Assembly (NCBI GenBank): GCA_021844425.1
Contig: JAKBTL010000087.1
Location: 1-64,000, forward strand
Source of the DNA: Actinomycetes bacterium
GTDB lineage: Bacteria > Actinomycetota > Acidimicrobiia > Acidimicrobiales > RAAP-2
Direction: 5' to 3'
Length of the DNA: 64,000 nt
Shown here: in pieces, positions 33,939 through 52,888 of the stretch
Position numbering within the stretch: position 1 is the first letter of the stretch
How the letters are laid out: each line of letters starts with the position of its first letter
Program-made: the position numbers and the translations under genes
Notes under the pieces: model-generated
What the model saw: only the letters and a program-made list of their open reading frames with translations
The model's database searches: none
What the model was told of the DNA's origin: nothing

Positions 33939-34391
33939 GTGAGCGACGTGAACGGGCACGACGCCGGAGGGCTGGACGCCGGAGGGCTGGACGGGGGTGG
34001 CCAGCGCGACGACCTCGATCTCGACCTGCTCGCGTCGTCCCTGCGTGCGGACGACGGCGACGTCCGGGTGCTGCTGCGTGCGCTGGTGACCAGGCTCTCG
34101 GGAGCGCTCGGCGACCGGTTGGTCGTCGAGCGTGCAGGCCGGTTCAAGAAGAGCGACGAGATCCGCCGCGTCTCGATCCAGCTGGGCGACGACCAGTTCG
34201 AGGCCACCGTGGACCGGGCCTCCCTCGCATGCACGGTGAGCCGGAGCAGTGGCGGGATACGGATCCGCTCGAGCCGCGTCGGCACCGACGAGTGGCTCCT
34301 GCGGCTGCTCGGTGCGCTGCGCGACGAGGCGGCGACCACCCAGGCGACCCGGGTGGCGCTCGAGTCCCTTGTGATAGGAAACTCCGCGTGA
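33939..34391 (+). CDS. Hypothetical protein, first gene of a YbjQ-domain cassette, 150 aa
   Basis: Not recognised as a named family. The first 25 residues are Gly/Asp-rich with a short repeat (AGGLDAGGLDGGG). The remaining 120 look like a compact alpha/beta domain (VRVLLRALVTRLSGALGD, then RVSIQLGDDQFEATVDR and IRIRSSRVGTDEWLLRLLGA). It ends at a TGA overlapped by the next gene's GTG. The tight coupling with three YbjQ-like genes suggests a common complex. Cytoplasmic; no signal peptide. The GTG start is supported by position after the G-rich upstream stretch only. Confidence 0.65.
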   Translation: MSDVNGHDAGGLDAGGLDGGGQRDDLDLDLLASSLRADDGDVRVLLRALVTRLSGALGDRLVVERAGRFKKSDEIRRVSIQLGDDQFEATVDRASLACTVSRSSGGIRIRSSRVGTDEWLLRLLGALRDEAATTQATRVALESLVIGNSA

Positions 34392-35263
34392 CGAACGCGC
34401 CGAGTGGGGACGACAAGGTCCCCCAGGCCGGACAGACGGTGGTTCCCGCCGGCGGTCCCCTCCCCGAAGGCCTCCCTCCCGACGCCAATCGCCGCCTCGC
34501 AGAGCTCGAGGACCGGCCCGGTCACAAGGGGATGTTCACCTCAGACCTCTCGGTGAACGAATTCCTTCTGATCAAAGAAGTCGGGTTCCATCCACTGGGT
34601 TTCGTGATGGGGAGCTCGATCTACCACATCGGCATCCAGACGCGGCGATGGTCGCAAAGCCAGGAGCTCTCGAAGCTCACCGGGGCGATGTACGAAGCGC
34701 GCCAGCTCGCGATGGATCGCATGGACGCCGAGGCGACCGAGCTCGGCGCCGACGGCGTCGTCGGTGTCCGCCTCGACGTGAACTACTACGAGTGGGGCTC
34801 GGACACCGCGGAGTTCATCGCGGTGGGCACCGCCGTCAAGTCCGAGGACGGGCGCTCGTACCGGAACCGTCAAGGCAAGCCCTTCACCTCCGACCTCTCG
34901 GGACAGGACTTCTGGGTGCTGATGCAGACGGGGCACGTACCGCTCGGGCTCGTCATGGGGACCTGCGTGTACCACATCGCCCACCGCGGCGTCGGCCAGA
35001 CCCTGCGCAGCGCAGGACGCAACGTCGAGCTCCCGAACTTCACCCAGGCGCTCTACGAAGCGCGTGAGCTCGCCATGACGCGCATGCAGGACGAGGCCAA
35101 CGAGCTCGGCGCCTCGGGCATCGTCGGCGTCCGCCTCGAGGAGAAGACCCACATGTGGGGCGACCACACGATCGAGTTCCTCTCACTGGGCACGGCCGTC
35201 GTCAAGTCCGACGGGGACCACACGATCCCCCAACCCCAGACGATCATCTCGCTCGACGGCTGA
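34388..35263 (+). CDS. Protein with two YbjQ-like (heavy-metal-binding-type) domains, 291 aa
   Basis: Two similar halves, about 45-155 and 160-285, each begin with FTSDLSxxxF and run GFHPLGFVMGSSIYHIG / GHVPLGLVMGTCVYHIA. Next comes an amphipathic helix (ARQLAMDRMDAEATELGADG / ARELAMTRMQDEANELGASG) and a closing strand (VVGVRLDVNYYEW / IVGVRLEEKTHMW). This helix-plus-VVGVR signature is that of the YbjQ/UPF0145 family, pentameric proteins labelled heavy-metal-binding without clear function. It overlaps the previous gene by GTGA and the next by one base. Metal binding is not demonstrated; conserved cysteines are absent. Confidence 0.82.
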   Translation: MTNAPSGDDKVPQAGQTVVPAGGPLPEGLPPDANRRLAELEDRPGHKGMFTSDLSVNEFLLIKEVGFHPLGFVMGSSIYHIGIQTRRWSQSQELSKLTGAMYEARQLAMDRMDAEATELGADGVVGVRLDVNYYEWGSDTAEFIAVGTAVKSEDGRSYRNRQGKPFTSDLSGQDFWVLMQTGHVPLGLVMGTCVYHIAHRGVGQTLRSAGRNVELPNFTQALYEARELAMTRMQDEANELGASGIVGVRLEEKTHMWGDHTIEFLSLGTAVVKSDGDHTIPQPQTIISLDG

Positions 35264-36213
35264 TGGCATCCCAGGCGGCCCCCGGCGAGGACCTTCCCGA
35301 GGCGGCCGGCCGCCGCCTCTCGACGGGTGCGTGGTCGTCGGGGCTCTCCGTTGCCGACTTCTCGTCGTCCCTCGAGATGGGCATGGACCCCGTCGGTTAC
35401 GTGCAGGGCTACGCCGTGATGCAGTGGAGCTGGTACATGGCGACAGGGGGGTTCGGCGCAGGCTTCGGGGGCGGGGCAGGCTTCGGGGGCGGGTGGGCAG
35501 CGGGTCCGCAGCGCCACGGTCAGTACGTCGAGCAATGGCAGTGCCCGCACGGATTCGTGAGCGCCGAGCACCGCATGTACGGGGCGAACTACGAGCTGAC
35601 ATGGCTGGAGCAGAGCTGGGCCACGGGCTGGTCGCTGGCCACGACCAGAATGGTCGAAGAGGCGACCTCGCTCGGTGCGACGGGCATCGTCGGCGTGGTC
35701 GACTCGATGCGACCCCTGACCGGAGGGGCAGTCGTCGAATTCCGCTCGAGCGGCACCGCCGTCGCGGTGCGCGACGCGCCGCGCCTCACCACTCCCTTCA
35801 GCACCTATCTCTCCGGCCAACGGCTGGCCAAGCTCATCGAGGCAGGGTTCGCGCCGATCTCGGTGGTGGCCACGCTCAGCTCCGTGCGCATGCTCGGGTA
35901 CTGCATCACCCATTACCAGCTCGCCGGATCGACCGCCGGCACGTGGTACGGGTCGGGGGCGGGCGGGGTCAGCGGGGTGGGACCGGTCGACCAGGTGAAC
36001 CGTGCGCAAGCGGCGGTCAGGCGGCTCGCACGCGAGCGCATCCGCGCGCAGCTCGGATCCGACGTGCTCCACGGCGCCCACATGGAGCAGTCCGAGCGCG
36101 AGATCGGTGAGGGCGACCTCTCCATCCAGTGCACCCTGAAAGGGAACAGGGTACGGCCGTTCAAGGACTTCGACCCGCTGCCCGAGCCGCTTCCCGTGGT
36201 CCGGCTCGCATGA
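35263..36213 (+). CDS. Protein with two YbjQ-like domains, 316 aa
   Basis: Second YbjQ-like member of the cassette. The N-terminal half carries a Gly-rich insertion (GFGAGFGGGAGFGGGWAAGP, residues about 62-85) and then MVEEATSLGATGIVGVVDSM. The second half (from TPFSTYLSGQRLAKLIEAGF) is more diverged. A short VxR-rich C-terminus ends it. Its ATG shares one base with the TGA of the preceding gene, a translational coupling. Possibly a subunit of a mixed oligomer with its neighbours, given that UPF0145 proteins are pentameric. No catalytic motif. Confidence 0.78.
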   Translation: MASQAAPGEDLPEAAGRRLSTGAWSSGLSVADFSSSLEMGMDPVGYVQGYAVMQWSWYMATGGFGAGFGGGAGFGGGWAAGPQRHGQYVEQWQCPHGFVSAEHRMYGANYELTWLEQSWATGWSLATTRMVEEATSLGATGIVGVVDSMRPLTGGAVVEFRSSGTAVAVRDAPRLTTPFSTYLSGQRLAKLIEAGFAPISVVATLSSVRMLGYCITHYQLAGSTAGTWYGSGAGGVSGVGPVDQVNRAQAAVRRLARERIRAQLGSDVLHGAHMEQSEREIGEGDLSIQCTLKGNRVRPFKDFDPLPEPLPVVRLA

Positions 36214-36229
36214 CCCGCACGCGGTGACG

Positions 36230-37096
36230 ATGCGCCTGCGCGACGAGGTCCGCGACGCGGTGCGTGCCGCGGGACCCGCGGGCGGCGCGGCCGCCCCGGC
36301 GGCGTCGTCTGCGAGGGACGGCGGGCGCACGGGGGTCGGTGGCACCACGTCGGACCTCACGATCGACGAGACCCTCCTGCTCCACTCGGCGGGCTGGGAA
36401 CCGGTCGACCTCGTCTACGGGGTCTCGTGGTGGTCGATTCCCTGGGGGGTCTGGCAGTGGTCGACGGGTGAAGTCCAAGAAGCGACCGCGGCGTTTGCCG
36501 GGGCCGTCGACCAGGCGGCGAAGCTGCTCCGCCAAGAGTGCGAGAAGGCGGGCGGGTCCGGCGTCCTCGGGGTGGAGATCGGCATTCGCGTGTCGTCGCA
36601 CCACGTCGCGATCGAGCTTTCGGGCACCGCCGTGCGCCGCACGCAGGGAACCAGGCCCACGTTCGAATTCATCTCCGACCTCTCGGCGCGCGACTTCGTC
36701 CTGCTCACCCGCGCGGGATGGTGGCCGCTCGGGCTGGCCGCGGGCGCGAGCTTCGTGGTCGCTCCCCGGCGTACGGCTCGTCAGTGGGCCGCGCAGCAGG
36801 GGCAGAACACCGAGCTTCCGAACCTGACCGAAGCGCTCTACCTGGCGAGAGAGCGGGCCATGGAGCGCATGCAGCGCTCAGGAGCAGCGATGAAGGCAGA
36901 GGGCATCGTCGCCGTGAAGCTGCGCGAGGGACGCGCCAGCTCGGGTGTGCGCGTCATGCAGTTCGTCGCCATCGGGACCGGCGTGCACCTCCGCACAGGT
37001 GAGCACCGTTCGATCGCACCCACCATGGTCGTCGCGCTCGACGAGCTCGTCCGCCAGTTCGACGTGAAGAGCCTGCGCAGCGCGAGCACGCAGTAA
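36230..37096 (+). CDS. Protein with two YbjQ-like domains, 288 aa
   Basis: Third YbjQ-like member. Half one (TSDLTIDETLLLHSAGWEPV, then CEKAGGSGVLGVEIGIRVSS) and half two (FISDLSARDFVLLTRAGWWP, then RSGAAMKAEGIVAVKLREGR) keep the same order of elements as the two upstream proteins. The N-terminal 35 residues are Ala/Gly-rich and probably flexible. The ATG at 36230 is chosen; GTG at 36224 is equally possible. It starts 16 bases after the preceding stop, so the four genes 33939-37096 form one operon. Confidence 0.78.
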   Translation: MRLRDEVRDAVRAAGPAGGAAAPAASSARDGGRTGVGGTTSDLTIDETLLLHSAGWEPVDLVYGVSWWSIPWGVWQWSTGEVQEATAAFAGAVDQAAKLLRQECEKAGGSGVLGVEIGIRVSSHHVAIELSGTAVRRTQGTRPTFEFISDLSARDFVLLTRAGWWPLGLAAGASFVVAPRRTARQWAAQQGQNTELPNLTEALYLARERAMERMQRSGAAMKAEGIVAVKLREGRASSGVRVMQFVAIGTGVHLRTGEHRSIAPTMVVALDELVRQFDVKSLRSASTQ

Positions 37097-37129
37097 GCCC
37101 GCCTCCCCCACCCGGTGCGGGCCTCCTCG

Positions 37130-38527
37130 TCACCCGGGGGACCCAGCGTCCCTCCGCGCCCCGGTGAGGAGCAGGACCACTCGATCGTGCGGCGCGACCC
37201 GCTCGCCCTCGATCAGCTCGAACAGGCCCGCCAGGCCCGCCGTACCGGTCGCGTCCGCATCGAGCCCGGCCGAGCGGGCGAGGTCGTTGGCCTCCGCCAG
37301 GCGCTTCTCTCCCACCACGACGGGCAGCCCGCCGGTTGCGAGCATCCCCCCGACGACGGCGAGCCAGTCGTACGTCTCGTCGTCGAGGATCCCGCCGGCG
37401 ATGCTGTGCGGCGGGCTCTCCCACGGCCACATGTAGTGCGAGCGGTGCCGTGCCGCCGCGTAGAGCGCGCCCTGCAGCTCGCCGGCATCGGCCCCGGCGC
37501 CGCCGGCGACGCCGGCCGGCACCAGGTCACGCACCTTGTGGTAGGCACGCTCGAGCGGGTGCGCGGAGACGGACTGCACGGTGTGCAGCGCCGGCCGGCG
37601 GTCGAGCACGCCGAGCTCGGTCGCCTCGGCGAAGGCCTGCGCGCAGGAGCTGGCGAGCGCCCCCCCGCCGACCTGGACGACGAGGTGGTCGGCGGAGATG
37701 CCCTCCGCCGCCAGCTGCCAGGCGATCTCGTAGCCGAGGGTCTCGCCGCCCTCGATCACCAGTCCGTTGAGGTTGCCCTGGCAGGTAAAGGGAAGCATGC
37801 CAGCGCCAAGGGCGTCGAGCAGGCGCAGGTACGGCGGGTCGCCACGCTCGCCGGTGCGGCGCTCGCAGGAGACGACGTCGGCCCCGAGGGCCACGAGGCG
37901 TGCGAGGATCGCCGGGTTGGCGTCGGGAGGGACGAAGACCCGGAGCCGGCGTCCCGCGGCGGCGGCGACGACGGCTGCCGCCAGGGCCGCGTTGCCGCAG
38001 CTCGCGACGGCGAGCGAGCGCCTGGCCGCCGGGTCGGCGAGCCCGACCAGCTCGGCGACCTCGAGGTGCAGCGCCACGCCCATGAGGTGGCGTGCCTTGT
38101 GCGAGCCCGAGACGTTGCCGGTCTCGTCCTTCACCCACACCCCTCCGGACTGTCCGAAGCCGAGGGCGCCGGACAGCGCGTCACTGCGGGCCAGCGGGGT
38201 CTCGGAGAAGCCATGGCCGTCGACGGCGGCGACGGCGGCGTCCAGGCGCCGTGCGAGCGCGACGTAGGCCTCGTCGCTGGCGCCGGCCGCTCGCGCACGG
38301 TGGTAGCTGTGCAGGAGCCGGCGGAATCGGACGAAGCTGCACGGATCGCCGGCGGCGCGATCAGCGTCGACGTCGTCGCGGCTCACCACAGCGGTGTCGA
38401 GATGACGCACGAGCACGTGGTCCACGTCGCCGCTGCCGACGTTCGGGCACGCAAAGGGGTAGGGCTCGGCAGCGTCCGGAGATGCACCGCAACCCGCGCA
38501 CTCGAGCCAGGTGATGGCACCGCTCAT
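37130..38527 (-). CDS. PLP-dependent threonine synthase-like enzyme
   Basis: A 465-residue fold-type II PLP enzyme. The N-terminus has a possible zinc ribbon ([10 protein letters not shown] with a later Cys), a feature of threonine synthase relatives. The PLP lysine is in [11 protein letters not shown], the phosphate-binding Gly-rich loop is [12 protein letters not shown], and the Asn-containing [11 protein letters not shown] contacts the cofactor. It starts at an ATG overlapping the stop of the upstream PLP gene (ATGA), so the two are coupled. It probably performs beta- or gamma-replacement/elimination on an amino acid, but the canonical threonine synthase role is not certain because both proteins form an unusual pair. 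Confidence 0.82.
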
Positions 38528-40020
38528 CCGGCGCGCACGCCGCTGCGGGCGTTGAACTCACCGATCATCTCGTCCCAGCTGTCGAGCTTGGCGCGCAGCC
38601 CCCGCCACCAGGACTGCTCGCGGCGCGCCACGAAGTCCTCGACGCTCACGCCCTGCTGCTCGACCCAGGTGTAATAGCCGAGGTTGAAGATCCGGGTGCG
38701 ATCCTCGAGCGTCGTCTCGAGCACGTGGTCGCTCTGCGCACCGAGCAGGTACCGGCCGAAGACCTCCGCGGCGTGCGCCTCGTCGAAGCCGTCGGGGAAG
38801 TCGCGGGCGAGGATCCGCTCGCGCTCGCTCGCGTACAACTCGGCTCCGTCGGTGGCGACCGTCATCAGCACGTCATCGGGCCCGAGCCCGAGAAGCTTGG
38901 CGGTCTTGACGGCAGCGACGACGTTGCAGATGCTCGACAGCCCGAAGTGGTCGAGCGCCTCGAGGGTCTCCTCGCTGACGCCGCGCCGCCCGGCGAGGAA
39001 CTCCCGGCCCTGTGCCGTGCCGAAAAGCAGGGCCAGGTGGTCGGTCGCGCGGTCGCTCACGGCCGCCACGATGTCGGTGTTGTGCACGTTGTGGACGTAG
39101 GGGATGTGCTTGTCGCCGATCCCTTGGATGTTGTGCTCGCCGAAGCCGTTGGCGAGCATCGTGGGACATTCGAGCGCCTCGACGGCGACGGTCTTCGAGC
39201 CGTGCTCCTCTTTCAAGAAGTCGCCCGCGGCGATCGTCCCGGCGGACCCGGTCGCCGAGACGAACGCGGCGAGGCGCAACCCCGGCGTCCGGCGCGCGAG
39301 GGCCTCGAAGACGTGGGCGAGGGCACGCCCGGTGCAGCGGTAGTGCACGAGGTGGTTGCCGAACTCGGCGAACTGGTTGAAGATGACGTGCTGGGGGTCA
39401 CGCGAGAGCTCGTCGCAGGCGTCGTAGATCTCCTTCACGTTGCTCTCCGTGCCGGGGGTGGTGATCACGTCGGCCGGGTCGCTCACCCAGCTGTAGAGCC
39501 AGTCGAACCGTTCGCGGCTCATGCCTTCCGGCAGTACCGCGACGCCGCGACAGCTCATGAGGCGCGAGATCGCCACCCCGCCTCGGCAGAAGTTGCCCGT
39601 CGAGGGCCAGACCGCCTTGTGCACGGTCGGGTCGAACTGGCCGGTGACGATGCGGGGCACGAGGCATCCGTAGGTGGCGAGCACCTTGTGGGCACGGATC
39701 ATCGGGAAGCGGTCGCCGTAGAGCACCACGACCGGCGACGCGATGCCGGTGAGCTCGCTTTCGAGCACCACGTGGCCGGGCACCTCCGAAATCGAAGCGC
39801 GGTCGGCGGCGTTGAACCAGTGGACACGGAACAAGTTGCGCGGATCTGCCTCGTCGGGCTTCACACCCACGAGCGCGGCGCGCACGGCGTCGGGGATCCG
39901 GGCTGGCTCGGCCAGCTCGGCGAAGGTCGGCAGCAGGATCCTGCGCTGCCGGAAGCTCTCCAGGGTCCGCTCGTAGACGCCTTCGTCGACGACGTGGTCC
40001 TCCAGTCCAAGGGTCGGCAT
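38524..40020 (-). CDS. PLP-dependent cysteine synthase-like enzyme, long form
   Basis: A 498-residue fold-type II enzyme, much longer than O-acetylserine sulfhydrylase (~310). The active-site region is atypical: [13 protein letters not shown] sits where the Ser/Thr-Gly-Asn substrate loop is expected. The loop [19 protein letters not shown] resembles the Gly-rich phosphate site. A PLP-binding lysine is not obvious to me by eye; the K in [10 protein letters not shown] is a candidate. The ATG at 40020 has AGGAGG upstream (CAGGAGGAAGCG), a good ribosome-binding site. The gene is coupled to the threonine synthase-like gene. Bases 40021-40303 hold no supportable gene. Confidence 0.75.
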
Positions 40021-40303
40021 CGCTTCCTCCTGAGTCTCGCTCGCCTTCTCCACCACGAGACGCCGCCTGGCATCGGGACGGCCGCCCGTACTCCCAGACG
40101 ACCCCGTCGTCGAGCGTCGCGTCGGCGACCTTCATGGAGCCGGCGATCTTGGCGCCGCAAACGTAATCGGTGCGGCACTGCTGGCGGTCAACCACGCCCG
40201 CGCGCTCCCACGGCGGTCGTCGACCGAGGGACGCGGAGCACGACGCCAGGAGCCGCTCGGTCCCGCTGCCTTCCGTGCGCGCTCCGTATGCGCCGGCCGC
40301 CTC

Positions 40304-41467
40304 CTACAGCCCCTTGACGAAGCTGGCGATGCGCTCGAGGGCGGACTCGATGTTCTCGACCGAGTTGGCGTACGACAGACGCAGGTAGCCCTCGCCGTAG
40401 GCCCCGAACGCGGTGCCGGCGAGGCAGGCCACGCCGCACTCCTCGAGCAAGCGGCGCTGCAGGGTGTCCGCCGAGATGCCGAGCTCCCTCACGTTCGGGA
40501 AGACGTAGAACGCGCCCTCCGGACGCGCGCAGGTGATCCCCTCGATGGCGTTCAGCCCGTCCACGATCACCTCTCGGCGGCGGCGGAACTCCTCGACCAT
40601 CTCCTCGACCGCCTGCCAGGGACCTTCGAGCGCAGCCTTCGCTGCATGCTGGCTGAATGCCGAGGTGCACGAGACGGAGTTGACGACGAGGCGCGTCACG
40701 GGCTCGACGAGGGGGGTCGGGAAGACACCGAAGCCGAGGCGCCAGCCGGTCATGGCGAAGGTCTTCGACCAGCCGTCGAGCAGCACGGTCCGCTCGGGCA
40801 TGCCGTCCAGCTCGAGCACGCTGGCGTGGCGCCCGCCGTAGCGGATCGCCCAGTAGACCTCGTCGGAGAGCACAACGAGGTCGTGGCGCAGCGCCAGCTC
40901 GGCGATCGCCTCGCACTCGGAGGGGCCGAGCGCGCTGCCGCAGGGGTTGTGCGGGGAGTTGAGCACGAGCAACTTGCTCCGCGCCGTGACGAGGCGCTCG
41001 AGCTCCTCGGGGTCGATCCGGAAGCCGTTCTCCTCCCGCAGGGGAACCGGCACCGGCACGGCGCCGGAGAAGGCGCTGATCGACTCGTACATCGGGAAGC
41101 CCGGATCGGGGTACAGCACCTCGTCTCCCGGCTCGCAAAGGGCGAGGATCGTGTAGAACATGATCGGCTTGGCGCCGGGGGTGACGATCACCCGGTCGGC
41201 GCCAGCCGAGAGGCGCCCCGTCCGCTCGAGGAACGCGCTCACCGCCTCGCGCAGCGCCAGGATGCCGGGCGCCGCGACGTAGTGCGTGGATCCCGCTCGC
41301 AGCGCGGCGACTGCCGCCTCGACGATGTGGGCGGGCGTCGCGAAATCGGGCTCGCCGATCTCGAGATGGACGATGCTGCGCCCGGTGGCCTCGAGCTCCT
41401 GGGCTTTGGCGAGCACCGCGAAGGCACTCTCGGTCCCGAGCAGCTGCATCCTGCTTCCAAGCTCCAT
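40304..41467 (-). CDS. Class I/II aminotransferase (aspartate aminotransferase-like)
   Basis: A 387-residue fold-type I PLP enzyme. Features: the N-terminal IVHLEIGEPDFATP, the cofactor-stacking region TPGAKPIMFYTILAL, the Asn/Pro motif LNSPHNPCGSAL, Asp in VVLSDEVYWAI, the Schiff-base lysine in LDGWSKTFAMTGWRLG, and the C-terminal substrate Arg in YLRLSYANSVENIE. It would transaminate aspartate or a related amino acid with 2-oxoglutarate. The ATG at 41467 is chosen over one nine codons upstream. It lies in line with the two PLP synthase-like genes, a third PLP enzyme in the block. Confidence 0.92.
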   Translation of the reverse strand: MELGSRMQLLGTESAFAVLAKAQELEATGRSIVHLEIGEPDFATPAHIVEAAVAALRAGSTHYVAAPGILALREAVSAFLERTGRLSAGADRVIVTPGAKPIMFYTILALCEPGDEVLYPDPGFPMYESISAFSGAVPVPVPLREENGFRIDPEELERLVTARSKLLVLNSPHNPCGSALGPSECEAIAELALRHDLVVLSDEVYWAIRYGGRHASVLELDGMPERTVLLDGWSKTFAMTGWRLGFGVFPTPLVEPVTRLVVNSVSCTSAFSQHAAKAALEGPWQAVEEMVEEFRRRREVIVDGLNAIEGITCARPEGAFYVFPNVRELGISADTLQRRLLEECGVACLAGTAFGAYGEGYLRLSYANSVENIESALERIASFVKGL

Positions 41468-41634
41468 GGCGGCATACTCCCGCGCGGCGTGCACTCCAGC
41501 TAGGGTCCAAAGTTAGTTCGTGCGCGTCGAAGGCGCAGGTGACGAACGGCCCTAGCTGAGGGCCGCCCGCCGGGCCATCATCGCCGTTGGCCCGCAAGGA
41601 CCCGAGCCCGTGACGCCCGGGAGGTCCGATCACC

Positions 41635-44034
41635 ATGCACGAAGTCGAGGTCGCCTACGAGCCCCGCCGCTTTCCGGCCGCGGGCAACGAGGAGGTCGAG
41701 CGGCTCTACGCCGCCTCAGCCGCGGACTTCGCCCGCTTCGAAGTGCTGAAGGACCTCGTCGACGAGTGCATCGACCTCTCGCTCGACTATCGCCAGAGCG
41801 GACATCCGGGCGGCTCGCGCTCGAAAGTCCACATGCTCTTGTCGCTGATGCTGAGTGGGGCGATGCGGTACGACCTGCGGCGTCCCTGGCTGCGGTGGGC
41901 CGACCGCTTCGTGCTCGCCGCCGGGCACACCGTGCCGCTCGTGTACGCCACCCTGGCGGTGCTGAACGAGGGACTGCGGGCGCGGGGGCGCGCCGATGGT
42001 GACGAACGCTTCTTTTTCCCCGAGGGCGGGCGCTTCGCCGTGACGTGGGAGGACCTGCTCGAGCTGCGACACCGCGGCGGCCTGCCGGGGCACGCCGAGA
42101 TGGCCGGCAAGACGCTCTTCCTCAAGAGCAACACCGGTCCCTCGGGGCACGGCATGGCGCCTGCAGCCGGCGAGGCCCTGGCGCTCAAGCTCGCCGGGGC
42201 CGAAGAGGTGAAGGTCTTCGTCGTCGAAGGCGAGGGAGGCCTCACCCCGGGCGCGGCACACGAGGTGAAGCACACGGCCTACGGCCTCGGACTCTCCAAT
42301 CTCGTCTTCTTGATCGACTGGAACGACTTCGGGATCGACCCCCGACCGCACTCGTCCGTCGTTGCCGGGACGCCCGTCGACTGGTTCGCCCCCTACGGCT
42401 GGCGCGTCACCGGAACCGAGGACGGCTCGGCGTGGGGCCCGGTCACCCGCACGGTGCTCGATGCCGCATGCGGCGCCAATCCTGATGGCATGCCGACGGT
42501 GGCATGGCTGAAGACGCGCAAGGGCCGCGGGTACGGCAAGTGCGACGCGGCGAGCCACGGCACGCCCTGGCCGCGGCACAGCGAACAATTCTGGAGTGTG
42601 CGCAAGCAGTTCATGGAGCGGTACGACGTCGAGTACCGCGGCGTCGACCGGCCGGCGCCGACCGACCCGGCGGACCAGCGCGCCGAGGAAGCGGCCAACC
42701 TCGAGGTGGCCCTCAGCGTGCTGCACCGCGACGAGGACCTCGTCGACTGGCTCTCCGACCGCCTCCTCGCCATCGCCGCCGGCGTGCCCGAGGAGATGCC
42801 TCGGGCCAGCGCAGGGCGCCGGCCGGTCCCAGGCGCCGACCGGCGCTTCTTCGACCCGGCGAGCTACCCGCCACAGATGTGGAAACCCCCTGGGGAAAAG
42901 GTCGCCAACCGCGCCGCATTGGGGACGTGGGGCGCCTACGTCAATTCGCTCGCCAGGAGCGACTACGGGCGGCCGCTGTTCGTCGCCTGCTCCGCCGACC
43001 TCGCCGAGTCGACGAACATCGCAGGCTTCGGGGCGAGCTTCGGCGAGGCGCCCGGATTCGGCTGGTACGAGCGCACGACCAACCCGACCGGCAGCCTGTT
43101 GCCAACCGAGATCACCGAGTTCACGAACGCCGGGATGATGGCAGGGCTCGCCACGGTCAACCTTGCCGACGACCCGTTCGCGGAGTTCGACGGGTTCTAC
43201 GGCGCGTGCTCGACCTACGGCTCGTTCTCCTACCTCAAATACGGCTCCCTGCGCCTGTTCAGCCAGCTCGCCCAGGACTGCGAGCTGAAGGTCGGCAAGG
43301 TGCTCTGGGTCGCCGCGCACTCGGGACCCGAGACGGCCGAAGACTCGCGCACCCACTTCGGCGTCTTCGCGCCGGGCGTGACCCAGCTCTTTCCCGACGG
43401 CCAGGTGATCGACCTGCACCCCTGGGAGTACAACGAGGTGCCGGTCGTGCTCGGGCGGGCGCTCTCGGCCGATGCCCCGATCGTCGCGCTGCACCTCACG
43501 CGGCCGGCGATCGAGGTCCCCGATCGGGAGGCCCTCGGCATGCCCTCGCACCTGGCGGCCGGGAACGGGGCCTACGTGCTGCGTCCGTTCCGCGAGGACC
43601 AGCCCAAGGGGGGGACGGTCTTCGTGCGCGGGACGCTGCCGACGGCCAACCTCGTGGCGATCCTCCCCGAGCTCGATGCCAACCGCCTCAATGTGAAAGT
43701 GGTTGCCGCGATCAGCCCGCAGCTGTTCGCTCTCGCCGGCGAGCCCTATCGCTCCTCGGTCATCGCGCCCGCCGATGCGATCGACTCGATGGTGATCACC
43801 AACGGGGCGTTCAAGCTGATGCGCGACTGGGCCGCAGGACCGATCGTGCGGGAGTACTCGCTGTCCGCGGACTTCGACGACCGCTGGCGCACCGGCGGGA
43901 GCGTCGAGGAGGTGATCGAAGAGGCGCACCTCGACGCCGGGCATCTCCTCGCCGGGATCGAGCGCTTCGTCGCCGAACGGACACTGCGGCTCCGCCGCTG
44001 GCAGACGTTGCTCGAGGAGATGTCCTCCCGGTAG
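41635..44034 (+). CDS. Transketolase-like thiamine-diphosphate enzyme, non-canonical
   Basis: A 799-residue protein with transketolase domain order: an N-terminal TPP domain (SGHPGGS, then KSNTGPSGHGMA), a pyrimidine-binding domain (from ANRAALGTWGAYVN, with Glu in TEITEFTNAGM) and a C-terminal domain. The TPP/Mg motif is altered: VVEGEGGLTPGAAHE followed by LIDWNDFGID, where canonical enzymes have GDG...NN. It may therefore use a different metal ligand set or substrate. It is longer than TktA (~660). It is divergent from the aminotransferase gene with 167 bases between (41468-41634, no gene). The substrate is unknown; two-carbon ketol transfer is the family reaction. Confidence 0.85.
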   Translation: MHEVEVAYEPRRFPAAGNEEVERLYAASAADFARFEVLKDLVDECIDLSLDYRQSGHPGGSRSKVHMLLSLMLSGAMRYDLRRPWLRWADRFVLAAGHTVPLVYATLAVLNEGLRARGRADGDERFFFPEGGRFAVTWEDLLELRHRGGLPGHAEMAGKTLFLKSNTGPSGHGMAPAAGEALALKLAGAEEVKVFVVEGEGGLTPGAAHEVKHTAYGLGLSNLVFLIDWNDFGIDPRPHSSVVAGTPVDWFAPYGWRVTGTEDGSAWGPVTRTVLDAACGANPDGMPTVAWLKTRKGRGYGKCDAASHGTPWPRHSEQFWSVRKQFMERYDVEYRGVDRPAPTDPADQRAEEAANLEVALSVLHRDEDLVDWLSDRLLAIAAGVPEEMPRASAGRRPVPGADRRFFDPASYPPQMWKPPGEKVANRAALGTWGAYVNSLARSDYGRPLFVACSADLAESTNIAGFGASFGEAPGFGWYERTTNPTGSLLPTEITEFTNAGMMAGLATVNLADDPFAEFDGFYGACSTYGSFSYLKYGSLRLFSQLAQDCELKVGKVLWVAAHSGPETAEDSRTHFGVFAPGVTQLFPDGQVIDLHPWEYNEVPVVLGRALSADAPIVALHLTRPAIEVPDREALGMPSHLAAGNGAYVLRPFREDQPKGGTVFVRGTLPTANLVAILPELDANRLNVKVVAAISPQLFALAGEPYRSSVIAPADAIDSMVITNGAFKLMRDWAAGPIVREYSLSADFDDRWRTGGSVEEVIEEAHLDAGHLLAGIERFVAERTLRLRRWQTLLEEMSSR

Positions 44035-44068
44035 GGCCCGTTCGTCGGGTGACCCGCGCGGGGAACTC

Positions 44069-44443
44069 TCAGACGCGGTGGTTGATGAGCTGCGTCGCCG
44101 TGGAGCGGAAGTACTCGGCCAGCTCCGCGTGATCGTCGGGCGGCAGGTGTGCCTGCTCGAGCGCCGCCAGCATGTGGCGCAGCCACGCATCCCGCTCGGC
44201 AAGGCCGATCTCGAACGGGGCATGGCGCATTCGCAGCCTCGGATGGCCTCGCAGCTCGCTGTACGTCTGCGGGCCGCCCCAGTACTGCACGAGGAAGAGG
44301 CGGAGGTGCTGGGTGGGCGCCTCGAGGTCTTCTGGATAGAGGGGGCGCAGCGTCGGGTCCCGCGCGACACCGTCGTAGAACCGGTCCACGAGATCCGAGA
44401 AGAACTGCTCACCCCCCACTCGCTCGTACATCGTCGAAGGCAT
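44069..44443 (-). CDS. glbO: Group II truncated haemoglobin
   Basis: A 124-residue 2-on-2 globin (TrHbO type). Landmarks: YERVGGEQFFSDLVDRFYDG with Tyr at the B10 position, a long E-helix region, the proximal His in RMRHAPFEIG, and the group-II Trp in DAWLRHMLAAL (G8). It binds haem and O2 and may act in redox or NO/peroxide chemistry; in actinobacteria glbO is usually single copy. The ATG at 44443 begins right before the globin core (MPSTMYERVGG). It faces the transketolase-like gene with 34 bases between stops. Confidence 0.95.
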   Translation of the reverse strand: MPSTMYERVGGEQFFSDLVDRFYDGVARDPTLRPLYPEDLEAPTQHLRLFLVQYWGGPQTYSELRGHPRLRMRHAPFEIGLAERDAWLRHMLAALEQAHLPPDDHAELAEYFRSTATQLINHRV

Positions 44444-44530
44444 CGACTCGACGGTAGACGCTCGACGGCGGACGGTCGCGCGGCGCGCCTACACTCGCCT
44501 CGGTCGAGGCAGCGCCTCACGATGTCCCAC

Positions 44531-44601
44531 GCGGCCGTAGTTCAATGGCAGAACCTCAGCCTTCCAAGCTGATGACGCGGGTTCGAATCCCGTCGGCCGC
44601 T
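44531..44601 (+). tRNA. tRNA-Gly (anticodon TCC)
   Basis: A 71-base cloverleaf: the acceptor GCGGCCG pairs with CGGCCGC, D-arm TAGTTCAATGGCAGAA, anticodon stem-loop TCAGC-CTTCCAA-GCTGA with TCC as anticodon, and T-arm GCGGGTTCGAATCCCGT. The 3' CCA is not encoded. It decodes GGA/GGG codons. Confidence 0.96.
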
Positions 44602-44793
44602 CCCACGATTTTCCCTGGTGAGTGGATCTTTCCACCAGCCGGCGAACAGCCATCGCGTGCACAGAACTGCGACCGGCTCGACGTCGACGGGGACAGACGG
44701 GGACGAGCAGACCGTGGATCCGGGCAGTCGAGGTACCATGCGGCCCGTTCCCACCAACGCGCGCCGGTCGGAGCGTGCCGCCTGGAGATCTCC

Positions 44794-45387
44794 GTGTTCC
44801 ATGACATTCCGACCGACATGCTCGAGCGTATGCACGAGCTCGAGCAGCGTGACCAGGCCGACCGCACCGACGGCACCTCCCGCCTTGACCGGCTCCGCCA
44901 GATCCCGGAGGAGACCGGGCGCTTCCTTGCGTTATGGGCAGCTTCTGCTCCCGAGGGGGCACTGATCGAGATCGGCACCAGTGCCGGCTATTCGGCACTC
45001 TGGCTCGCACTTGCCTGCCGGGCGAGGGCGCGCACGCTCACGACCTTCGAGGTCCTCCCCCACAAGGTGGCCCTCGCCCGAGAGACGTTCGCCCGCGCCG
45101 GCGTCGGCGACGTGGTCACGCTCGTCGAGGGCGACTTCCTCGATCACGCAGACGAGATCGATCGGGTCGGGTTCTGCTTCCTCGACGCCGAGAAGGAAGT
45201 GTACGAGGCCTGTTACCGCGTGGTCGTGCCGCGCCTTGTCCCCGGCGGCATGTTGATCGCGGACAACGCGATCAACCACAAGGAGACGCTGCAGCCGATG
45301 ATCGACGCCGCGCTTGCCGACGAGCGCGTCGACGCGCTCGTCGTGCCCATCGGCAAGGGCGAGCTCGTGTGTCGAAGGAAGACGTGA
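44794..45387 (+). CDS. Class I SAM-dependent O-methyltransferase
   Basis: A 197-residue protein with a Rossmann methyltransferase fold of the caffeoyl-CoA/catechol-like O-methyltransferase type: motif [17 protein letters not shown], acidic residue after strand 2 ([12 protein letters not shown]), [10 protein letters not shown], then [14 protein letters not shown] with the metal-site Asp and DNAINH. The start is taken as GTG at 44794 (GGAG six bases upstream); an ATG at 44818 is possible. It lies just downstream of the tRNA but is separated by about 190 bases. The substrate is unknown. Confidence 0.88.
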
Positions 45388-51853: not shown

Positions 51854-52888
51854 GTGCCAGACGCTCCCCTCAGGCTCTCCGCCCTGACGCCCGATCCGGA
51901 GTCGCTTCGCGCGCTCTCTCGTATCGACGACGAGTCGATCGGCCGTGACGCCGTCTCCGAGATGCTGCCCGCGATCCGCCCCTACGTGCGCACGACCCCG
52001 GTCATTCGCATCGATCGTGCCGAGCTGGGCCTCTCCGCCGGCCCGCTCGTGCTCAAGCTCGAGCACCACCAGCACTCGGGCTCGTTCAAGGCACGGGGTG
52101 CGTTCGCCAACCTGCTCATGGGTGCGATCCCTCCTGCGGGGGTGGTCGCCGCGTCGGGTGGCAATCACGGGGCGGCGGTCGCCTACGCCGCGCGGCGTCT
52201 CGGGGTGGAGGCGACCGTCTTCGTTCCAGAGGTCTCCTCGCCGGCAAAGCTCGCGAGGATCGAGGCCTACGGTGCGCACCTGGTCGTGGGCGGCGCCTCG
52301 TACGACGAGGCCCGAGCCGCCGCCGGGCGCTGGCACGAGGAGACCGGCGCCCTCGACGTCCCTGCGTTCGATGCCGTAGGCACGGTGCTCGGTGCGGGCT
52401 CAGCCGCGATCGAGCTCCAATTCCAGGCACCTGATGTGGACACGGTGATCGCGTCGGTGGGCGGCGGCGGTCTTGTGGCGGGCCTGTGCGCGGGGTATGA
52501 CGGGGCGGCATCGGTCGTCGGTGCCGAGCCGGACGGCGCGCCCACGCTGACCGAAGCGTTGCGTGCGGGACATCCAGCCGACGCACCCGTCGGCAGCGTG
52601 GCCATCGACTCGCTTGCGCCTCGGCGGGTGGGCGTGCACACCTACAACGTCATCGCGCGGCTCGGCTCGGGAGCCGTCCTCGTGGACGACGCCTCGATCG
52701 TCGCCACCCAGCGGCTGCTCTGGGACCGCCTCCGTCTCGTGCTCGAGCCCGGGGGCTGCACCTCGCTCGGTGCGCTCGTCTCGGGCGCCTACGCGCCCGC
52801 CCCCGGCGAGACCGTCGCCGTGGTGTTGAGCGGTGCGAACACGACAGCCGTGGACTTCGACCGAACGTCGCCGTCACCCCTGCACTGA
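51854..52888 (+). CDS. Threonine dehydratase / serine racemase-like PLP enzyme
   Basis: A 344-residue fold-type II enzyme: PLP lysine in HSGSFKARGAFANL, Asn-containing SGGNHGAAVAYAAR, tetraglycine phosphate loop SVGGGGLVAGLC, and the C-terminal cofactor Ser/Gly region VLSGANTTAVDF. There is no C-terminal ACT domain, so it is the catabolic or racemase-like short form. It deaminates threonine or serine to the 2-oxo acid (or racemises serine). Starts at GTG. It is separate from the 37-41 kb PLP block. Confidence 0.9.
   Translation: MPDAPLRLSALTPDPESLRALSRIDDESIGRDAVSEMLPAIRPYVRTTPVIRIDRAELGLSAGPLVLKLEHHQHSGSFKARGAFANLLMGAIPPAGVVAASGGNHGAAVAYAARRLGVEATVFVPEVSSPAKLARIEAYGAHLVVGGASYDEARAAAGRWHEETGALDVPAFDAVGTVLGAGSAAIELQFQAPDVDTVIASVGGGGLVAGLCAGYDGAASVVGAEPDGAPTLTEALRAGHPADAPVGSVAIDSLAPRRVGVHTYNVIARLGSGAVLVDDASIVATQRLLWDRLRLVLEPGGCTSLGALVSGAYAPAPGETVAVVLSGANTTAVDFDRTSPSPLH

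Follow-up and report, generated by a model that had tools for sequence, protein, structure and literature searches.

A stretch of 64,000 nucleotides (nt) from an Actinomycetes bacterium of the Acidimicrobiales (lineage RAAP-2; contig JAKBTL010000087.1 of assembly GCA_021844425.1, positions 1 to 64,000; here called the window) carries a cluster of two unusual pyridoxal phosphate (PLP) enzymes, an aminotransferase, and a transketolase-like protein, and this raises the question of what the four enzymes do. The genes were labeled A (threonine-synthase-like), B (long cysteine-synthase-like), C (aminotransferase), and D (transketolase-like). Genomes are denoted by G, loci by L, and contigs by C plus a number; the window's genome is G000, and loci L178 and L180 lie in G351 and G286, respectively. 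We propose that A and B act as the final PLP enzymes in reductive purine (urate) breakdown, with C and D as an accessory branch, a proposal that has about an even chance of being right. That the B-A pair belongs to the reductive purine pathway is quite probable; that B, together with A, would cleave the beta nitrogen of diaminopropionate or albizziin is a narrower, tentative suggestion.

An earlier, sequence-only reading of the window had held that the set could make or degrade a non-standard amino acid from a sugar-derived skeleton. Degradation agrees with the association of B-A with the reductive purine pathway described below. The sugar-derived skeleton found no support; a purine C3 unit is the most likely source. 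All four open reading frames (ORFs) of that reading were recovered in the ORF list, as were the ATGA overlap of A and B, the upstream aminotransferase (C), and the divergent transketolase-like gene (D). The features are as follows.

37130 to 38527, minus strand: gene A, threonine-synthase-like fold II PLP enzyme, 465 amino acids (ORF, PALP match of 126 bits, AlphaFold2 model)
38524 to 38527, minus strand: ATGA in which the start of A overlaps the stop of B, 4 nt (from ORF ends)
38524 to 40020, minus strand: gene B, long cysteine-synthase-like fold II PLP enzyme, 498 amino acids (ORF, AlphaFold2 model)
Residues ~412 to 498 of the 498 of B: conserved C-terminal extension
40304 to 41494, minus strand: gene C, class I/II aminotransferase, 396 amino acids (PF00155, 241 bits)
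41495 to 41634, no strand: intergenic gap of 140 nt between C and D, candidate shared promoter region (from ORF coordinates alone)
41635 to 44034, plus strand: gene D, predicted transketolase-like thiamine pyrophosphate (TPP) enzyme, 799 amino acids (GEG replacing GDG; Pfam)

Gene C lies 283 nt from B on its upstream side and is divergent from D. The reading frame of B stays open back to a GTG at 40056.

B and A form an old gene pair

Relatives of B were collected in a contig scan that returned at least 588 stretches, and the best 80 loci were taken as the named loci. According to their record titles, these come from Actinomycetota, Acidobacteriota, Myxococcota, Planctomycetota, Gemmatimonadota, Pseudomonadota, and others; hosts of B include Acidimicrobiia, Myxococcota, Acidobacteriota, and Pseudomonadota. 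A follows B in 56 of the 80 named loci, always on the same strand and downstream (56/56), and a median of 37 nt separates the aligned ends (up to 203 nt in 55 loci and 1,024 nt in the remaining one). Among the 24 loci without A after B, the contig ends less than 200 nt from B in 5. B-A is thus an old gene pair that spans at least six phyla. In two deep-branching genomes (L182 and L183), the gene directly upstream of B is a distant relative of A (55 and 65 bits), the reverse of the usual order. A quick tree grouped the window's B (support 99) with those of L026 (same genus), L042 (Nocardioides), and L040. Among 61 relatives of the window's genome, B was found in 14 and A in 9.

The complete block of A to D was detected only in G000 and in a near copy, G002, whose four proteins are 99% identical to those of the window. 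Of the four-gene block, whose conservation the sequence-only reading had proposed as a check, the halves occur more widely, B-A in 56 of 80 loci and C-D in three more genomes.

B co-occurs with a molybdenum hydroxylase and nearly excludes YgeX

The reductive uric acid pathway of Escherichia coli and Clostridioides difficile comprises XdhD, YgfK/UacX, SsnA, HyuA, YgeW/UacY, YgeY, and the diaminopropionate ammonia-lyase YgeX (PMC12507026, PMC12990295). The pathway, described in 2025, arrives at its end at the amino acids albizziin and 2,3-diaminopropionate (PMC12507026). A hydroxylase that resembles the selenium-dependent xanthine dehydrogenase model recurs with B. In the 61 relatives, B was present in 14, the hydroxylase (>600 bits) in 17, and both in 13. 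Among 396 genomes of the phylum, the counts were 28, 50 (E ≤1e-180), and 25, so that the hydroxylase occurs in 25 of 28 genomes with B versus 25 of 368 without it (Fisher p ~1e-22). Three B genomes lack it (G249, G404, and G351); in G351, a full YgfK, an SsnA-like gene, and another xanthine-dehydrogenase-type protein stand beside B.

B and YgeX are nearly mutually exclusive in this phylum sample. A YgeX-type lyase (E ≤1e-30) was found in 2 of the 28 B genomes, one of them the window's, versus 22 of the 25 genomes with the hydroxylase only (one of the 22 slightly below the cutoff). Gene A (E ≤1e-25), searched for in these 53 genomes, showed the opposite distribution: 19 of 28 versus 0 of 25.

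A further count covered the genomes of 39 named loci, mostly from outside the phylum. A strong hydroxylase match (>700 bits) was present in 16 of 22 genomes with A adjoining B, in 2 of 4 in which the contig is truncated, and in 2 of 13 with B but no A (16/22 versus 2/13, Fisher p ~0.002). Outside the phylum, it is therefore the pair, more so than B by itself, that marks the pathway.

Purine-type genes near B

Neighboring genes were named by family scans on single representatives, and phmmer similarity served to extend the names to further loci. Of the 80 named loci, the hydroxylase lies near B in 17 (>500 bits to one seed), an SsnA-type aminohydrolase in 19, either of the two in 24, and both in 12. 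Homologs of the linked hydroxylase, YgfK, SsnA, carbamoyltransferase, and YgeY/hydrolase genes are present by B relatives in L049, L096, and L178, some of them below cutoffs. L096 has YgfK, SsnA, the hydroxylase, and a YgeX-type lyase (NF006058), all above cutoffs. L049 has a hydroxylase above the cutoff (886 bits) together with SsnA-, YgeW-, and YgeY-like genes and the N-terminal part of a YgfK, all below theirs. L178 reads, on one strand, C, D, PyrB-like, OTC/YgeW-like, carbamate kinase, B, SsnA-like, and YgfK, with the YgfK (896 bits) and the carbamate kinase above cutoffs. An SsnA-like gene, B, and dihydropyrimidinase form a row in L040, and L042 has B, A, two carbamoyltransferases, and a xanthine-dehydrogenase-like protein that scores weakly against the hydroxylase model.

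In the window's genus, one contig of G006 holds 8-oxoguanine deaminase, SsnA-like, hydroxylase, YgeX-type, and A-B genes. Hydroxylase loci of this genus, for which the family scans were made on proteins of G001 and G008, contain 8-oxoguanine deaminase, an SsnA-like gene (below the cutoff), a hydantoinase/carbamoylase-family amidase, a YgeX-type lyase, and dihydropyrimidinase. Judging by sequence, these genes belong to the reductive uric acid pathway set out in PMC12507026 or are relatives of its components.

B(-A) loci thus share with that pathway homologs of the hydroxylase, YgfK, SsnA, HyuA, YgeW, YgeY, and carbamate kinase, and C-D occurs there once. They differ from it in that YgeX is mostly absent from B genomes of the phylum sample, with two other PLP enzymes instead, and in that some B loci have LLM-type or half-length YgfK-like proteins.

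Other settings of B were also seen. In seven alphaproteobacterial loci with B but no A (L084, L094, L097, L106, L115, L116, and L117), the neighbors are subsets of F420 biosynthesis, LLM-class oxidoreductase, CoA-transferase, LamB/YcsF, and transporter genes; in L094 and L115, CofGH, CofC, CofD, CofE, and F420 reductase exceed their cutoffs. This context is possibly that of a second, F420-dependent ring-breaking pathway. A fold III-type gene is divergent from B within ~1.2 kb in seven Actinomycetota loci (L062, L067, L071, L072, L085, L086, and L088) and lies 4 to 7 kb from B in L075, L093, and L035. That of L085 has alanine-racemase and D-serine-dehydratase domains, and the others were named by similarity to it; the gene is a hint of D-amino acids. 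On a Bosea vaviloviae plasmid (L171), B stands near a TPP-binding protein and a RidA family protein. RidA, searched for with one seed as a marker of aminoacrylate release, was found beside B on this plasmid alone among the loci scanned.

Folds and active sites of A and B

The product of A matches Pfam PALP above the cutoff (126 bits) and reaches neither the cutoff of threonine synthase (NF006050, 84.5 versus 303 bits) nor that of diaminopropionate ammonia-lyase (NF006058, 22.8 versus 276 bits). Its AlphaFold2 model (predicted local distance difference test score [pLDDT] of 93.7, from a 30-sequence alignment) has the threonine-synthase fold (Z of 38.6, root mean square deviation [rmsd] of 2.3 over 321 residues versus 2d1f). 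In the structure comparison, threonine synthase came first and threonine/serine dehydratases next; diaminopropionate lyase 5ygr aligned with a Z of 30.6 (rmsd of 2.8 over 320 residues). Lysine K144, in a GSHKAR motif, is invariant in 30 of 30 alignment rows. A special closeness of A to YgeX was considered and discarded, since comparison with the profiles of three YgeX-type lyases gave common PALP homology and nothing closer.

B scores below the cutoff of PALP (31.2 versus 35 bits) and of cysteine synthase (TIGR01139, 75.3 versus 350.95 bits), and it was not listed against the diaminopropionate ammonia-lyase model NF006058. Its AlphaFold2 model (pLDDT of 92.7, from 38 sequences) has the CysK/cystathionine beta-synthase (CBS) fold (Z of 33.0, rmsd of 2.9 over 305 residues versus 3vc3_A, aligned range 44 to 411; rows within 1 of one another treated as tied), and its motifs WPSTGN (asparagine loop), GSAGT (phosphate loop), and IQGIG align with those of solved CysK. 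From the model, B looks like a PLP enzyme of fold II. It differs from CysK and CBS in its 498 amino acids, its additional conserved C-terminal part, and a score far below the cutoff. Diaminopropionate lyase 5ygr was not among the best 50 structure matches listed for B, which excludes nothing. In two plasmid records, B is annotated merely as "pyridoxal-phosphate dependent enzyme."

The sequence-only reading had suggested modeling of the 498-residue protein to find its PLP lysine. The candidate obtained, and likely Schiff-base lysine, is K112, invariant in 38 of 38 rows and the first residue of helix 112 to 125 in the model; sequence profiles do not align it cleanly. D391 had been considered as an altered partner of the PLP ring nitrogen and was dropped because its aligned position is uncertain. 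The same reading called A and B synthases, a name that finds no support, as neither reaches the cutoff of its synthase models. The window's genome carries two further thrC genes above the cutoff and other CysK/M- and CBS-type genes, which fall below cutoffs when scored over the matched stretch only. A and B are therefore additional to these. A resembles ThrC in fold and differs from it in score and in this presence of other thrC genes.

C and D form a module of their own

C is an aminotransferase of PF00155 (Aminotran_1_2; 240.7 bits, gathering score 19.7). D matches Transketolase_N (62.6 bits), stays below the cutoff of Transket_pyr (24.9 versus 27 bits), and does not reach that of transketolase (TIGR00232, 82.8 versus 682.25 bits). 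The profile of its family covers nearly the whole of solved transketolase 8r3o (E of 6e-43). It is unlike transketolase in its length of 799 amino acids, its score, and the sequence GEGGLTPG at the position where transketolases read GDG; the altered TPP motif noticed earlier thus proved genuine, being invariant in all six aligned sequences of the family, including the window's.

D was found in 2 of the 61 relatives, with no match in the 80 named B loci and none in the plasmid search. The view that C and D are unconserved, taken from the relatives and the named loci, was overturned by the search of 396 phylum genomes and by new loci. D is present in 6 of these genomes, in four of them with only 31 to 33% identity, and B is present in 4 of the 6 (Fisher p ~3e-4). 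A D homolog with 67% identity is the direct neighbor of B in G260, and the end of a C homolog (83%) adjoins A in G006. A C-like gene adjoins a D-like gene in G351, G377, and G286; only in G351 does the pair lie in one run with B, SsnA, and YgfK, and in G377 and G286 it is present without B. C-D, which recurs both with and without B, is thus an independent module that accompanies B in no fewer than two places. In L180, the neighbors of the C-D-like pair are an alcohol dehydrogenase, another aminotransferase, and two genes that resemble a 2-oxoacid:ferredoxin oxidoreductase pair.

A proposed role and its rivals

The sequences show the genes, their folds, the pairing of B with A, the gene neighborhoods, and the co-occurrence; the direction in which the pathway runs in the hosts, the substrates, the division of labor between A and B, and all of the chemistry of C and D are matters that we infer. 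Through the upstream genes, the purine would be reduced and its ring opened, giving 2,3-diureidopropionate and from it albizziin and/or 2,3-diaminopropionate. B, probably aided by A, would then remove the beta nitrogen of the C3 amino acid by PLP chemistry, yielding aminoacrylate and then pyruvate and ammonia, the job of YgeX in E. coli. Two enzymes could be needed because A and B might each take one isomer (D or L), whereas YgeX takes both; alternatively, B and A could act in series. Many fold II PLP lyases and synthases proceed via aminoacrylate. C would transaminate a 3-substituted alanine to a 2-keto acid, and D might use this 3-substituted pyruvate in a TPP reaction, as suggested by transketolase chemistry. 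A more far-reaching version, in which environmental bacteria from many phyla have a reductive purine pathway that ends in a B-then-A PLP relay rather than YgeX, with the two enzymes dividing the D and L isomers or acting in series, and in which a C-D branch feeds some of the C3 unit into carboligation, is doubtful.

Several observations weigh against the assignment of A and B to purine breakdown. None of the 15 window proteins checked against Pfam is another reductive-purine gene, and whole-genome searches gave no match for the hydroxylase, YgfK, or YgeX on the window's contig. The hydroxylase of the window's genome is located on a 5.2-kb contig (C72, L154) beside a YgeX-type gene; it is 94 to 95% identical to those of G001/G012 and 82 to 83% to that of G002, and the contig may be mis-binned. 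Many SsnA/YgeW/YgeY-like neighbors score below curated cutoffs. The L042 genome, close to the window's in its B, has no strong hydroxylase match, and many alphaproteobacteria have B without A and weaker hydroxylase matches or none. In G006 (contig C33), A and B are convergent, unlike the usual order. The B genomes represent 10 families, and those with the hydroxylase only represent 5 different ones; because of this clustering, the Fisher test overstates independence. Finally, YgeX coexists with A-B in the window's genus (in G006 on a single contig, with ~4 kb between them) and with B in L096. A-B is therefore no simple stand-in for YgeX there, and the simple form of a replacement of YgeX by A was dropped. 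The coexistence leaves room for a job beyond that of YgeX, for example, on one isomer; YgeX is reported to act equally well on both (PMC12507026, citing earlier work).

The alphaproteobacterial loci could instead mean that B acts on another beta-nitrogen amino acid that arises from several ring-opening pathways, with purine and F420 as two contexts and A tuning B to purine. Where B lacks A in these bacteria, its neighbors include F420 biosynthesis genes (above cutoffs in L094 and L115), genes for an LLM-class enzyme, CoA transferases, and LamB/YcsF, and in two cases a serine dehydratase, and the strong hydroxylase was present in 2 of the 13 genomes with B but no A. In the window's phylum, on the other hand, the hydroxylase accompanies B in 25 of 28 genomes, and G351, one of the misses, has a full YgfK and an SsnA-like gene by B; we consider this explanation unlikely, if the strongest of the rivals. 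The cysteine-synthase fold of B and the likeness of A to threonine synthase, then to threonine/serine dehydratases, would also suit a biosynthetic pair, in which B adds a nucleophile to aminoacrylate and converts some of the diaminopropionate into serine, cysteine, or a beta-substituted alanine, and A processes the product, e.g., as a serine/threonine dehydratase-like lyase. This agrees with the serine dehydratase that Pfam identifies close to B in L084 and with a gene of similar sequence in L106, but the near-exclusion with YgeX, a catabolic lyase, and the catabolic neighboring genes make it improbable.

The skeleton of sugar origin favored by the sequence-only reading for the four-gene set can draw on the recurrence of C-D, since an aminotransferase and a transketolase-like enzyme do form a true module. 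The recurrent neighbors of B across phyla are nevertheless of the purine type, no sugar gene recurs among those named, and the full block is confined to G000 and G002, so that we give this explanation very little credence. Least probable of all is that A and B are housekeeping threonine and cysteine synthase paralogs brought together by chance. Fold matches are all that speaks for it, and it is at odds with their patchy spread (of 396 genomes, 28 have B; A was found in 9 of 61 relatives and in 19 of the 53 phylum genomes in which it was sought), scores far below family cutoffs, the other thrC/CysK-type copies, and the B-A adjacency across phyla.

Relation to the known pathway

A and B represent uncharacterized enzyme families and would belong to a variant of a known pathway type. 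With YgeX they would share the reaction, as proposed from sequence, and fold II PLP chemistry, and the model of A aligns with 5ygr; the score of A against the lyase model and the missing listing of B set them apart. No paper that places B-A in the purine pathway was found in the open-licence PMC literature, and the terms "cysteine synthase" and "threonine synthase" have 0 occurrences in PMC12507026. That study colors SsnA neighborhoods by PF00291, and its counts of YgeX could therefore include B or A.

With a B-A pair that nearly excludes YgeX, there are specific enzymes on which the stereochemistry and final step of the pathway can be tested, its taxonomic spread bears on pathway origin, and B gains a first functional context. 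If the relay outlined above were true, the gut uric acid pathway would represent a single branch of a more ancient and more widespread environmental system.

Other features of the window

Three consecutive genes with YbjQ-type putative heavy-metal-binding domains are located at 34229 to 37096, the middle one below the Pfam cutoff. An Rfam scan of 37000 to 45000 gave a tRNA gene (44531 to 44601, 72.7 bits) as its sole match. A truncated bacterial globin (44069 to 44443; PF01152, 114 bits) lies immediately past D on the opposite strand. A further PALP gene, of the serine/threonine dehydratase type, occupies 51854 to 52888, and its matched stretch scores 349 bits against NF006094 (cutoff of 331).

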